Source of the DNA: Candidatus Sulfopaludibacter sp. SbA3
GTDB lineage: Bacteria > Acidobacteriota > Vicinamibacteria > Vicinamibacterales > UBA2999
Assembly (NCBI GenBank): GCA_945876205.1
Contig: CAMCNL010000008.1
Coordinates: forward strand, 1 to 36,732
Reading direction: 5' to 3'
DNA length: 36,732 nt
In this document: positions 18,583-22,710 of the stretch, one piece after another
Position numbering within the stretch: position 1 is the stretch's first letter
Layout of the letters: each line of letters opens with the position of its first letter
The notes under the pieces: model-generated
Databases searched by the model: none
Seen by the model: only the letters and a program-made list of their open reading frames with translations
What the model was told of the DNA's origin: nothing
Program-made: the position numbers and the translations under genes

Positions 18583-19416
18583 TTATCCGGATTTCAAACG
18601 GGCCAGCAGCGACTTGACGACGTCCGGCGCGTCGGTCGGAATATGCGCCGCCCAATTGACCGTGTTGACCGGCACCATGATCAGCTTGCCCCCGGCCGGC
18701 ATCGGCTTGCGCTTCTGTTCGGCAATCGCCATAGCCAGGTCGCGCGCCGGCGCGACTTTCGGCGCCATCAGAAACACGCACAGGTCGCGCTGCTTGTCCG
18801 GTTTCATCCGGCTCGCCATGGTCCAGGATTCGGCCAGGATGGCCGCATCCACGTGGTCGGTGAACCGTCCCAGCACGCGCGACGGTAACTTGAGCTTCCA
18901 GAATGGCGGCTTGGGAATACAGGTGATCTGGAAACCCTGGAGCGGAGGCTGCTCGAAGTTTCCGAACTCGCTGACGAGCGCCTGGCGAAACCGCATGACC
19001 GTCGCCTTCCTCACGAGGTCGCTGGCGCCCGCCCGATCCTGCGAGAACACTGACGAGGACACGGAGGCATCCGGTTCGGCAGTCGGGACTCGTTCCGCGC
19101 CGGGGCGTGCAGCCTCCGGGGGACGCGGTGGTGCATCCGTCGAGGGTACCGCCGCGGGCGCGGCCGCGTGGTAGGCGGCTGTTGGTTCACCGGTTTCGAG
19201 CTGGGCGTCGTAGTCGGCACGCAGCGTCTCATCGGTGAGCGTCTTATAAGACTGGGTCAGCTCCGCGGCCTTGACGGCCGCGATCTCCTGGAATTCCTTG
19301 CCAAGATGCTGAACCTTGTCGGGATGGTATTTCGCGATCTCGCGGCGGAAGGCGCGTTTGATCTCATCCATGGACGCCGTTGGGGTGACGTCCAGCATCT
19401 CGTAGTAGGTCTTCAC
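18583..19416 (-). CDS. J-domain protein with unrecognised C-terminal domain
   Basis: The 277-residue protein starts at GTG 19416, with a G-rich stretch upstream. The first 75 residues are a J-domain: MKTYYEMLDVTPTASMDEIK, then the HPD tripeptide in AKYHPDKVQHL, and the helix ending LRADYDAQLE. J-domains stimulate the ATPase of DnaK-type chaperones. A Pro/Ala-rich linker (about 80-125) leads to a C-terminal domain of about 150 residues (from VMRFRQALVSEFGNFEQP to the end) that is not the zinc-finger/substrate domain of DnaJ and was not recognised. It lies 19 bp after the PilB/GspE-like ATPase, probably in one transcript, which suggests service to that machine. Confidence 0.85.
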   Translation of the reverse strand: MKTYYEMLDVTPTASMDEIKRAFRREIAKYHPDKVQHLGKEFQEIAAVKAAELTQSYKTLTDETLRADYDAQLETGEPTAAYHAAAPAAVPSTDAPPRPPEAARPGAERVPTAEPDASVSSSVFSQDRAGASDLVRKATVMRFRQALVSEFGNFEQPPLQGFQITCIPKPPFWKLKLPSRVLGRFTDHVDAAILAESWTMASRMKPDKQRDLCVFLMAPKVAPARDLAMAIAEQKRKPMPAGGKLIMVPVNTVNWAAHIPTDAPDVVKSLLARLKSG

Positions 19417-19435: not shown

Positions 19436-21487
19436 CTATTTCTTGAATTCCGCGACGTTCCTGGCGGCCGGTAGCTCTGGGAGCTCGCGCTGGGTGCGCA
19501 GGCGTTTCGCGCCGCCGGCCTTCTTGGCGGTGGCCGGATCGGTGCTCTTGGCGCAGTACGGGCAGAACTTCCAGCCCGCCTGCACGGGCTTGTTGCAGTG
19601 CGGGCAGCCGCCGCCGACATGGTGCCCGCAGGCCGGGCACGCGACGAAATCAGGTGACACGTTGATGCCGCACTCGGGGCAGACGGAGCGTGCTTCGCGA
19701 ACCTCGGTGACGACGCGCAGCAGTTCTTCCGGCGTCGTCTGTCCCGCTTTGACCTTCAGCAGGCCGTCCTCACCGAGCGAAATCATCCCCGCCGAGATCG
19801 CCGCGTCGCGAAGCTGCGCTTCGGAACCCTTCTGGGAAATCAGTCGGCGGAGCTTATCGGTGACCGGCATGATCTCGTAAATACCGACGCGGCCGCGATA
19901 GCCGGTGTGATTGCACTGGTCGCATCCCACGGCTCGATAGAAGGTCAGCGTCGCCGCCTCGGCTTCCGCCACGCTCATGGCGCGCAGCGTTTCGGCCTCG
20001 GGTGTGTAGGGACGCTTGCAGTGGTTGCACAGCCGGCGCATCAGCCGCTGGGCGACGACACCAATCAACGCGGATGCCGCCACGTAGGGCTCGATGCCGA
20101 TGTCGGTGAGACGCGTCACGCACGAGGGGGCATCGTCGGTGTGCAGCGTGGAGAGCACGAGGTGGCCCGTCTGCGCCGCCTGCATCGCGATGCGCGCCGT
20201 TTCCTGGTCGCGGATTTCGCCGACCAGCACGACGTCCGGGTCCTGCCGGAGAATGGACCGCAGGGCGCTGGCGAACGTCAGGTTGATCTTGGCGTTGATC
20301 TGCGTCTGGTTGACGCCGGGGATCTGGTACTCGACCGGGTCTTCGATCGTGATGATGTTCGTGCGCTCGGATCGGACCGACGTCAGCGCCGAGCAGAGGG
20401 TCGTCGTCTTGCCCGAACCGGTCGGTCCGACGACGAGGATCATGCCGTGCTGATGGCGCAGGAAAAAACGGATGTGCTCGAGGGCGTGGGCCGAGAAGCC
20501 GAGCTCTTCGAGCGGCGGCACGCCCTTGCGGTGGTCGAGAACGCGCATGACGATCTTCTCGCCGAAGATCGTCCGCAGCGTCGAGGCGCGGAAATCGACT
20601 TCCAGTCCATCTTCGGCGGTGGCGCGCACGCGTCCGTCCTGGGGCAGGCGCGTCTCGGCGATGTCCATACCGCCCATGATCTTGAAGCGCGCGACAAGTC
20701 CCTCGTGGACCCACTTGGGCAGGTCCATGACTTCCTTGAGCAGCCCGTCGAGGCGATGACGGACGACGACGTTGTTTTCGTTCGGCTCGATGTGGATATC
20801 GCTGGCGCGACTCTTGAGCGCGCTCTTGATGACCAGATCGACCAGGTCGATGATCGGCGCGGTTTCCGGCGTCGCGCCCTTGCCGCCGCCGACCTGCTCA
20901 AAGATATCGTCTTCCGGGCGCGGGATGAGGCCGGCGCCGGGGTCGGTGAGCGGCGCGAGCATGCCGCCGGTGGTCGTGTCTTCGGTGCCGGGCTGGCCGC
21001 GTCGCGGCCGGTTCTGCACTGAAAGCCCGCCGCCGCCCGGCTGATTGAGACGGGCGAGCGCCTTGTCGGGATAGGATGCGTGAATCGATTCGACGATTTC
21101 CGCGCGCGTCGCCACCACCTGCTTGATGCGATAGCCGGTCTGGAATTCGAGGTCCTGGACGAGCGTGAACAGCAGTGGATCGGACATCGCCACCGTCAGC
21201 AGGTTCTTTTCGACCGCGATGGCAATGCAGGTGCGCTTCAGGGCCACGTCCTTGGGGATCAGGACGACGGCCGACGGGTCCGGGGGGTTCTCCGCGAGGT
21301 TGACGTATGAGAATCCGAGTTGGTACGCGAGGGCTTTCGCGATCTGGCGTTCAGTCGCGAGGTTCATCCGCACGAGTACAGACCCCAGGCGTTCGCCCGA
21401 GCGTTTATGCTCGACGAGCGCCGTCTGGAGATCCGCTTCGGTGATCAGTCCCGCCTGGACGAGACACTCACCGATTTTTTTGCGCAA
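19436..21487 (-). CDS. PilB/GspE-type secretion or pilus assembly ATPase with MshEN region and C-terminal double zinc ribbon
   Basis: 683 residues. Start TTG at 21487, chosen because GAGGAG lies 5 nt upstream. Two tandem MshEN-like motifs open the protein (KIGECLVQAGLITEADL at 4-20, RLGSVLVRMNLATERQI at 33-49); this fold can bind c-di-GMP in other ATPases. The second N-terminal subdomain follows to about 140, then a Gly/Pro linker. The motor has Walker A GPTGSGKTTT (354-363), an aspartate box, LVGEIRDQETA (421-431), STLHTDDA and a tetracysteine module (CNHC, then CDQC). An unusual C-terminal extension holds four CxxC pairs (603/606, 617/620, 628/631, 642/645), i.e. two zinc ribbons. It would power a type IV pilus or type II secretion assembly; no other pilus genes are in the window. 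Confidence 0.93.
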   Translation of the reverse strand: MRKKIGECLVQAGLITEADLQTALVEHKRSGERLGSVLVRMNLATERQIAKALAYQLGFSYVNLAENPPDPSAVVLIPKDVALKRTCIAIAVEKNLLTVAMSDPLLFTLVQDLEFQTGYRIKQVVATRAEIVESIHASYPDKALARLNQPGGGGLSVQNRPRRGQPGTEDTTTGGMLAPLTDPGAGLIPRPEDDIFEQVGGGKGATPETAPIIDLVDLVIKSALKSRASDIHIEPNENNVVVRHRLDGLLKEVMDLPKWVHEGLVARFKIMGGMDIAETRLPQDGRVRATAEDGLEVDFRASTLRTIFGEKIVMRVLDHRKGVPPLEELGFSAHALEHIRFFLRHQHGMILVVGPTGSGKTTTLCSALTSVRSERTNIITIEDPVEYQIPGVNQTQINAKINLTFASALRSILRQDPDVVLVGEIRDQETARIAMQAAQTGHLVLSTLHTDDAPSCVTRLTDIGIEPYVAASALIGVVAQRLMRRLCNHCKRPYTPEAETLRAMSVAEAEAATLTFYRAVGCDQCNHTGYRGRVGIYEIMPVTDKLRRLISQKGSEAQLRDAAISAGMISLGEDGLLKVKAGQTTPEELLRVVTEVREARSVCPECGINVSPDFVACPACGHHVGGGCPHCNKPVQAGWKFCPYCAKSTDPATAKKAGGAKRLRTQRELPELPAARNVAEFKK

Positions 21488-21492
21488 CCGGG

Positions 21493-21511
21493 CTCCTCAA
21501 AACGAGTTATA
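21493..21511 (-). promoter_or_regulatory. ribosome-binding site and possible -10 for the PilB/GspE-like gene
   Basis: GAGGAG (21498-21493 read leftward) is spaced 5 nt from a TTG codon and fixes that codon as the start. TATAAC (21511-21506) lies 18 nt before the start codon's ribosome-binding region and could be a -10 element, but no -35 match was found. Confidence 0.55.
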
Positions 21512-21526
21512 CGACCCCTCAAGGTT

Positions 21527-21575
21527 TCGGTTGGAACCGACGAATGCCGTAGAGGTGGCGAAATCTGTAAGATTT
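21527..21575. repeat. two small inverted repeats in the divergent PilB/GGDEF intergenic region
   Basis: TCGGTT-GG-AACCGA occupies 21527-21540 and AAATCT-GTA-AGATTT occupies 21561-21575. Both are perfect. They sit about 40-90 bp upstream of the ATPase start and 110-160 bp upstream of the GGDEF start. They may be operator sites or short hairpins; no known operator was recognised. Confidence 0.45.
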
Positions 21576-21684
21576 GAGTATACAAACCCACCAGGGGAGA
21601 TGGGACAGGCCAAATTTGGTAAGTCATTCGCAAACGGACATTTCTACCTAAGTGTCGTGTAGAGTCCTATGAAGTTCATTGTCC

Positions 21685-22710
21685 ATGCTGGCCGTGCCAC
21701 CTCAAACCGATAGCGACCACGTGCAGGAACCAGCCGAGCTCCGAAACCAGGTCGCTCGAACCCTGCTCCTGCGCGCGCAGACCATCGCCAGGGATTCGGT
21801 TGCCGTGTTCCCGTTCGCCGGGGTCGAAGAGGTCGACGCCGAGTTCAGCCTCAAGCTCGCCGACCTGATCCTTCAGTTGATCACCGACGCGGCCCTGACC
21901 GGGCAGCTCAATCCCCGCACGCCCACCGTCAATGACCTTCGGCAGGTCGCATCCGAGAAGGCCATCGGCATCCGGCAGCTCTTTGGGCTGGTGTACGTGA
22001 TGGAACGGGCTGCGCTCGACGAGCTCGCACTCGACGAGTCGTTCGGCGCCATGTCCGAGCCCTGGCCGTCGATTGCGCAGATCGTGCGGCGCTCCTCCTT
22101 CGATGTCCTCTCCGCCTTCTCGACGAATCTGACGTTGGAGCCGGGCGACAGCGCGATCGTCGATCCCTTGACGACGCTGCATACGAGGGCGGTGTTCCTT
22201 GCGGCGCTGGAGAAGGAAATCCAGAGGTCAGAGCGGTTCGGTCACCCGTTTGCGTTGATTCTGCTCGATGTCGATCACCTCGCGGACATCAACGCCAAGC
22301 ATGGATACGGTTCGGGCGACCGCGTGCTGGAGCGGATCGGCTTCACGGTTCGCAATTACTTCCGTGAACAGGACTGGGTGGCGCGATACGCCGGCGACTG
22401 TTTCGCCGTGCTGCTGCCGGAGACGCATCGCGAGCACGCGGAGCAGCTTGCCGACCGCATCCGCGGCACCGTTGAGACGAGACTGGAGCTCCACGATTAC
22501 CGCTCCGACGAGCAGGTGCCGGTCACCGTCTCGGTTGGCGTGCTGATCGCCGAAGCGGTCGATCAGAGCGTGCGCGCCGAGCAGCTCCTGCACGATGTGA
22601 AAGAGGCGGTCGATCGAGCCAAGCAGGCCGGCCGCAATCGCCTGGAGCGAGTGAATGTCGCGCTGAACCGATCGGTTCCGCCTGCGCGCGACAACCTGCC
22701 GATGGATTAA
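21685..22710 (+). CDS. GGDEF-domain protein with degenerate active site (AGDCF) and intact I-site
   Basis: About 341 residues from the ATG at 21685; a TTG two codons upstream is an alternative. The N-terminal half (about 1-155) is helical, with no recognised sensor family. The C-terminal half is a diguanylate cyclase fold: DPLTTLHTRAVFLAALEKE, FALILLDVDHLADINAKHGY, SGDRVLERI, and YAGDCFAVLLPET where the GGDEF motif should be (A236-G-D-C-F). Loss of the glutamate and first glycine argues against cyclase activity. R227-E-Q-D230, exactly five residues before the motif, is a proper RxxD inhibitory site, so the protein may bind c-di-GMP instead of making it. It is transcribed divergently from the MshEN-bearing ATPase. 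Confidence 0.85.
   Translation: MLAVPPQTDSDHVQEPAELRNQVARTLLLRAQTIARDSVAVFPFAGVEEVDAEFSLKLADLILQLITDAALTGQLNPRTPTVNDLRQVASEKAIGIRQLFGLVYVMERAALDELALDESFGAMSEPWPSIAQIVRRSSFDVLSAFSTNLTLEPGDSAIVDPLTTLHTRAVFLAALEKEIQRSERFGHPFALILLDVDHLADINAKHGYGSGDRVLERIGFTVRNYFREQDWVARYAGDCFAVLLPETHREHAEQLADRIRGTVETRLELHDYRSDEQVPVTVSVGVLIAEAVDQSVRAEQLLHDVKEAVDRAKQAGRNRLERVNVALNRSVPPARDNLPMD

Follow-up and report, generated by a model that had tools for sequence, protein, structure and literature searches.

A degenerate GGDEF gene divergent from a pilus-type ATPase gene

The DNA analysed here (the window) is a stretch of 36,732 nucleotides that forms one contig of the draft genome (391 contigs) of Candidatus Sulfopaludibacter sp. 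SbA3. On opposite strands and reading away from one another, it carries a gene for a secretion/pilus-type ATPase with an MshEN domain and a T2SSE core and a gene for a GGDEF protein with a degenerate catalytic motif, and a J-domain gene lies directly behind the ATPase gene (Table 1). A first-pass annotation of the window, which placed both genes of the pair correctly, had proposed that both proteins are effectors of a single pilus or secretion machine controlled by cyclic di-GMP (c-di-GMP). Analysis of the wider family showed that the GGDEF protein has lost its catalytic glutamate in all members with a readable motif while the RxxD core of its I-site (inhibitory site) is kept in every one of them, and that the two genes are consistently paired. 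We favour, with a probability of roughly 0.52, the interpretation that the GGDEF protein is a FimX-like, c-di-GMP-binding pseudo-enzyme that would partner an extra pilus-type ATPase for which no platform gene is at hand.

The ATPase matches PF00437 (T2SSE) with E = 1.1e-127 and PF05157 (MshEN) with E = 1.1e-16 (61 bits against a threshold of 23.1), its Walker A and other T2SSE motifs are intact across the orthologue alignment, and its scores fall below the NCBIfam equivalog cut-offs of both PilB (576.8 versus 675.65 bits) and GspE (546.8 versus 630.25 bits). Four CxxC pairs lie within the last 90 residues in 44 of 45 ATPase orthologues. A divergent ATPase copy in another genome (L064 of G002), which has no GGDEF neighbour, lacks the NVAEFKK tail.

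An AlphaFold2 model of the GGDEF protein (predicted local distance difference test, 87.4) superposes on PleD with bound c-di-GMP (2wb4) with a Z-score of 25.0 and a root-mean-square deviation of 2.5 over 173 aligned residues. The helical N-terminal domain holds one invariant tryptophan (W127) and is possibly a sensor or an ATPase-binding part. Orthology with FimX was considered and rejected, since only a GGDEF domain and no EAL domain was matched.

Table 1 Features of the locus, with positions in the window.
Feature	Position	Strand	Details
J-domain protein	18583..19416	-	Directly downstream of the ATPase; PF00226, 1.5e-14; HPD intact
MshEN-T2SSE secretion/pilus-type ATPase	19436..21487	-	683 amino acids; TTG start
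Conserved ATPase C-terminal tail NVAEFKK	19439..19459	-	Pattern in 43/45 orthologues
C-terminal double zinc ribbon	19553..19681	-	Four CxxC pairs; PF12773, 2.1e-09
T2SSE ATPase core	19715..20866	-	PF00437, residues 208-591; Walker A GPTGSGKTTT; CxxC/CxxC zinc site
MshEN C-terminal subdomain	21065..21316	-	Pfam PF05157, residues 58-141
MshEN motif II, RLGSVLVRMNLATERQIAKALAYQ	21320..21391	-	ATPase residues 33-56; ends in Gln
MshEN motif I, KIGECLVQAGLITEADLQTALVEH	21407..21478	-	ATPase residues 4-27; His in place of terminal Gln
Divergent intergenic region	21488..21678	.	Between ATPase (-) and GGDEF gene (+)
Degenerate GGDEF protein	21679..22710	+	ATG at 21685 is the likelier start
N-terminal all-helical domain	21733..22137	+	Model helices between residues 17 and 151; no Pfam family
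GGDEF domain	22153..22641	+	PF00990, E = 1.2e-34; sole domain matched in the protein
RxxD I-site (REQD)	22363..22374	+	R and D in 39/39
Degenerate A-site motif AGDCF	22390..22404	+	Fourth position never Glu

Loss of the catalytic glutamate and retention of the I-site

Motifs were counted in 39 sequences in which they are complete, namely that of the window and those of 38 named loci (L105, in which a contig end cuts the motif, was excluded). The window string reads R-E-Q-D-WVARY-A-G-D-C-F, with five residues between the end of RxxD and AGDCF exactly as the first-pass annotation had it, and both halves of this pattern extend to the family: arginine and aspartate of RxxD are retained in 39/39, all of which have a residue other than glutamate at the fourth GGDEF position (S 15, T 8, A 7, G 3, C 2, V 2, M 2; Glu 0/39). 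The second position is E in 29, G in 7 and D in 3, the second glycine thus being lost in 32/39, and the third is aspartate in 38/39. As a control, the six other readable GGDEF proteins of the same genome (L001-L006) all have glutamate at the fourth position (L008 gave no match), and such cyclases with intact motifs could supply c-di-GMP.

The two sites also differ in how they have evolved. On a tree of 37 rows, which were used for the residue tallies as well (tree length, 16 substitutions per site), the fourth position has undergone 15 changes against a median of 7 per site, and R227 and D230 of RxxD none; the 8-residue I-site stretch contains 4 of the domain's 17 invariant positions (P = 0.004). 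By numbering offset, R227, D230, R258 and R181 are the equivalents of PleD R359, D362, R390 and R313, so that the window protein has the whole I-site as defined by the roles reported for PleD-type residues (PMC12943098, PMC8041772). Among the 37 rows the partner arginines R181 and R258 are found in 35 and 28, respectively, and all four I-site residues occur together in 27.

The naturally AGDEF cyclase VCA0965 is reported to lose its activity when changed to AGDAF (PMC3974145), and the residue of DgcR equivalent to the fourth glutamate is reported to coordinate metal M2 (PMC8041772). On this pattern of residues, the GGDEF protein is very probably without cyclase activity, and there is a good chance that its I-site binds c-di-GMP; with the catalytic residue lost and the signal site kept, the protein probably reads c-di-GMP instead of making it. 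Two further observations concern the same region. The residue immediately after RxxD, Trp231 (22375-22377), is present in 37/37, and other residues stand there in the non-family GGDEF domains examined. A second GGDEF copy of the window's family type (L061, G000:C205, 1-992) lies frame-broken at a contig end of the same genome, its halves in two frames, with the motif SDDTF and RxxD kept; it may be a paralogue, an assembly error or admixture.

In PleD, N335 and D344 are the residues of guanine recognition and D327 is a metal ligand. Their equivalents in the family, N203 and D212, are found in 37/37 and D195 in 36/37; the third-position aspartate is present in 36/37, K313 (PleD K442) in 34/37 and R317 (PleD R446) in just 26/37. 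Since the guanine-recognition residues are invariant, GTP binding is possible, and the A-site (active site), judged by its residues, is reshaped rather than erased. The earlier description of a dead A-site beside an intact I-site thus stands as regards the catalytic defect and the I-site, both fixed family-wide, and has to be amended in that the A-site, with its invariant N203 and D212, is not simply dead. Sites of this kind have been described: the GEDEF domain of Caulobacter CC3396 is reported to bind GTP and to make no c-di-GMP (PMC4823724), and the GDSIF motif of FimX is predicted to retain weak GTP affinity and is reported to matter for piliation (PMC11656802).

A clade-specific substitution in the MshEN motifs

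The two MshEN-like motifs that had been noticed at the N terminus of the ATPase were borne out: they are 24 residues each with a spacer of five, and the NCBIfam model c-di-GMP_motif (NF053729, a c-di-GMP-binding MshE-related domain) matches residues 4-56 with 64.1 bits over a cut-off of 38. Compared with the extended MshEN consensus, which includes (R/K/L)LG..Q (PMC11731258), motif I fits at 9/11 and motif II at 8/11 key positions by hand count, the chief misses being a His for Gln24 in motif I and an Asn for Gly10 in motif II. In the alignment, motif I ends in His in 48/48 orthologues and in Gln in 30/32 other MshEN domains from the same scan; motif II ends in Gln in 48/48 orthologues and has Asn at position 10 in 42/48. 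The position-3 glycines and hydrophobic stacking positions of both motifs are retained, and position 1 of motif I is Lys in 40 and Met in 7 of the 48 orthologues (one locus is incomplete), Lys at this position being reported from strong c-di-GMP binders (PMC11731258).

How much weight the terminal Gln carries differs between the published accounts. Wang et al. report that altering Arg9, Asp12 or Gln32 of MshE shifted affinity by at most fivefold (PMC5013675). The GSPII-A domain of Thermus PilF, in which the corresponding residue is likewise His and motif II is poor, is reported not to bind c-di-GMP, and binding was restored only by changing His and two other positions together in a shortened construct (PMC12002112). 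With a His fixed in motif I across the clade, c-di-GMP binding by the MshEN domain of the ATPase is rather likely and not safe to assume.

Conservation of the gene pair

When 84,980 species genomes were scanned with the N terminus of the ATPase, 48 loci came back at 72-97% identity and the next match at 42%, a drop that marks a discrete family. Among 297 evenly drawn genomes of the phylum, the window's own included, the family was present in 7, all of one order, and it is confined to that one acidobacterial order, Vicinamibacterales. The gene pair, whose conservation the first-pass annotation had put forward for checking, is divergent in 39/39 loci having both genes. The GGDEF gene is present in 39/48 named loci, and six of the nine others have less than 1 kb of upstream sequence, which leaves 39/42 when judged by contig ends.

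In 58 relatives searched by identity and coverage, GGDEF orthologues were found in 19 and ATPase orthologues in 22; by hand tally, both genes occur in 19, the ATPase alone in 3 (in one of these, L063, the contig ends at the ATPase), the GGDEF gene alone in none and neither gene in 36. All 18 loci with enough contig have the GGDEF gene divergent beside the ATPase gene and the J-domain gene behind it. Pairwise distances of the GGDEF protein and the ATPase are correlated with rho 0.79, the highest value among 15 neighbour gene pairs (others 0.15-0.68). The ACS, INO1 and ABC genes are likewise conserved around the pair, and more loci are without ACS or INO1 than without the GGDEF gene.

Candidate machines

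Seven T2SSE matches in the genome exceed the cut-off. One contig (C172) carries PilB with PilT and the start of PilC, another (C335) a GspE-like gene with GspF, and two more (C213 and C215) carry one further T2SSE locus each, with two T2SSF matches apiece; from a T2SSE gene with two nearby T2SSF matches the last two would be read as Tad-like. The possibility that the window ATPase is the main PilB of the genome was rejected, since PilB with PilT and PilC is located on that different contig.

In a few relatives the pair, or the ATPase gene, has further neighbours. Upstream of it in L093 lie genes for a histidine kinase, a sigma-54 response regulator (PilS/PilR-like), a PilB-like ATPase and a PilC-like protein; in L132 one T2SSE and one T2SSF gene lie upstream of the ATPase gene, together with a gene whose product shows a weak N-methylation (pilin) motif; and in L126 the kinase and the regulator are present. 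In this minority of loci, the family is linked by its neighbours to a machine of the pilus or secretion type. Among the loci examined in the window's genome there was no orthologue of the PilB or the PilC of L093, the best PilC-like match being at about 32% or lower. The proposal of one pilus or secretion machine for both proteins is therefore favoured by type IV pilus- or type II secretion-like neighbours in some relatives, and for the window itself the machine can only be supposed; that the two proteins act on one machine seems reasonably likely.

Proposed mechanism and alternative explanations

We propose that the GGDEF protein would be an enzymatically dead cyclase that senses c-di-GMP through its I-site, perhaps tuned by GTP, and that it would act, presumably by physical contact, as a dedicated regulatory partner on the divergently encoded ATPase, as FimX does on PilB. 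The ATPase, with its modified MshEN site, may itself read c-di-GMP as a second c-di-GMP input, and the J-protein, encoded on the same strand as the ATPase, would help to assemble or remodel the motor; it may, speculatively, recruit Hsp70 for hexamer assembly. The machine served by the motor would resemble a type IV pilus or a type II secretion system: an ancestral one, of which some relatives still have the genes beside the pair, or, in the window's genome, one of those encoded at other sites.

Several points weigh against this interpretation. The literature searched holds no binding, interaction or phenotype data for any member of the family. No T2SSF platform gene lies near the ATPase or anywhere on the window's contig, and genes resembling those of type IV pili adjoin the pair in few loci and are absent from that contig. 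No orthologue of the ATPase has its first MshEN motif end in Gln. RxxD is present in 15/16 non-family GGDEF domains with a readable motif (hand count), so its presence is weak evidence by itself; what counts is that the motif has stayed fixed where the A-site has drifted. The GGDEF gene is missing despite upstream DNA in L062 (= L122), L064, L131 and L132, which means that the GGDEF protein is not obligatory for the ATPase, and the distance correlation is soft evidence because linkage and shared ancestry can raise it.

The GGDEF protein might instead sense GTP, with or without c-di-GMP at the I-site, through an A-site that would still bind GTP though unable to catalyse, and report the guanine-nucleotide or energy state to the ATPase, much as the GEDEF domain of CC3396 does to its EAL domain. 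The near-complete retention of N203, D212, D195, the third aspartate and K313 would fit such a role, as would the glutamate at the second motif position in 29/39, which is also that of the CC3396 GEDEF motif (PMC4823724), and the predicted weak GTP affinity of the FimX GDSIF motif, itself of importance in piliation (PMC11656802). However, CC3396 has the fourth glutamate that the window family has lost, N and D may be kept for stability of the fold, and R317 is found in only 26/37; we consider this explanation unlikely. About as doubtful is the idea that the ATPase is no motor but a signalling or scaffold protein that reads c-di-GMP and influences another process. It would account for the want of a T2SSF gene on the contig, whereas PilB, the GspE-like gene and the two other T2SSE loci have an adjoining one, and for the extra double zinc ribbon and conserved tail, and PilB of Myxococcus is reported to affect the production of exopolysaccharide (PMC5544727); but the Walker A and other T2SSE motifs are intact in the orthologue alignment, PilC-like and pilin-like genes adjoin the family in L093 and L132, and a motor can work on a platform whose gene lies at another site.

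That the two genes are neighbours without a functional link, the GGDEF protein being a cyclase in decay that persists in some unrelated structural role, appears quite improbable. Conservation of the ACS, INO1 and ABC genes would indicate a region that is stable in general, and the ATPase is retained without the GGDEF gene in some lineages; yet the GGDEF gene never occurs without the ATPase (0/19 relatives, hand tally), is lost from the locus less often than ACS or INO1, and shows strong site-specific conservation of its I-site. An active cyclase with an unusual site was rejected as very unlikely: although activity is possible in enzymes with AGDEF or SGDEF (PMC3974145) and the third aspartate, D195, N203 and D212 are kept, the active variants described there retain the fourth glutamate, which is missing in 39/39 here, AGDAF is reported to be dead in VCA0965 (PMC3974145), and the second glycine is also lost in 32/39.

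The FimX-like interpretation could be extended to a two-ligand pair unique to one order, in which a pseudo-cyclase with c-di-GMP at the I-site and GTP at a reshaped A-site ([GSA]-E-D-[STA]-[IF] in most members) would gate a T2SSE ATPase of a third kind, distinct from both PilB and GspE and marked by the Gln-to-His change in MshEN, the zinc-ribbon tail and a J-protein of its own, as a plug-in motor or a brake on pilus machines encoded elsewhere. We regard this extension as unlikely.

Relation to known systems

Receptors that bind c-di-GMP at the I-site of a degenerate GGDEF domain form the CdgA/PopA/SgmT type, and the window protein has the GGDEF fold, the disabled catalytic motif and the RxxD five residues upstream that characterize it. 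CdgA (Bd3125) of Bdellovibrio bacteriovorus likewise combines a degenerate GGDEF motif with RxxD five residues upstream; it is reported to have no cyclase activity and to bind c-di-GMP with a dissociation constant of about 2 uM (PMC3271064). Its motif, GVNEF, keeps Glu-Phe, unlike that of the window protein, and it acts at the predator 'nose', and the accessible text of that study mentions no pairing with an ATPase gene (PMC3271064). In the FimX-PilB and FimX-PilZ-PilB systems of Pseudomonas and Xanthomonas, a catalytically degenerate GGDEF-fold protein is likewise associated with c-di-GMP and with an extension ATPase of the PilB type (PMC11656802). FimX, however, binds c-di-GMP by its EAL domain, whereas the window protein has no EAL domain and an intact I-site, and in the window, unlike in the FimX systems, the genes are divergent neighbours with a J-domain gene beside the ATPase. 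The GTP sensor CC3396 shares with most family members the glutamate at the second motif residue and the kept guanine-binding residues, but has an EAL domain and the fourth glutamate, which the window family is without. On the ATPase side, MshE, Thermus PilF and Chloracidobacterium PilB share with the window protein the tandem 24-residue motifs, the five-residue spacer and the T2SSE core; the window clade differs from them in the His of motif I, the double zinc ribbon, the NVAEFKK tail and scores below the PilB and GspE equivalog cut-offs.

What is known of c-di-GMP control over pilus motors comes, to our knowledge, from a small number of proteobacterial and Thermus cases. The dead GGDEF receptor and the MshEN ATPase both have precedents; searches of the open PMC literature found no fixed pair of the two with a J-domain gene and a clade-fixed MshEN substitution. 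Both partners appear to carry c-di-GMP-type sites and are locked together in a little-studied acidobacterial lineage. The pair lends itself to asking cleanly whether a single motor answers to two receptors. The His fixed throughout the family at a contact position provides a naturally occurring test of the MshEN consensus, and invariance of the guanine-binding residues despite a dead A-site prompts the question whether GTP and c-di-GMP are sensed in combination.

Other features of the locus

The J-domain gene is present in 46/48 loci, and the contigs of the other two end inside the ATPase gene. H31, P32 and D33 of the J-protein are invariant (38 rows). Its C-terminal alpha/beta domain has no clear family; it gave weak Foldseek matches to NucC (E about 0.007) and a weak superposition on the N-terminal domain of YqgP (Z-score 8.5, root-mean-square deviation 3.5, 126 residues). 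A c-di-GMP riboswitch in the divergent region was rejected, as there is no Rfam match anywhere in the window at gathering thresholds, and a promoter scan of 21350-21800 found no sigma-70-like site and one terminator-like match, with 0.5 expected.

A subclade (L097:3437-5242, L104, L105, L115, L125 and others) has an extra gene between the GGDEF and ATPase genes, with matches, fragments included, in 15/48 loci, two of which are the query loci. It has no convincing Pfam or NCBIfam family, and a profile search of the PDB gave no credible match; an impression by eye that it is PilM-like is unsupported by these searches, and the name is not used as evidence. Its product is a proline-rich protein of about 490-740 amino acids with a conserved C-terminal 'ILYSxDRxLAIVDGRIV' domain.

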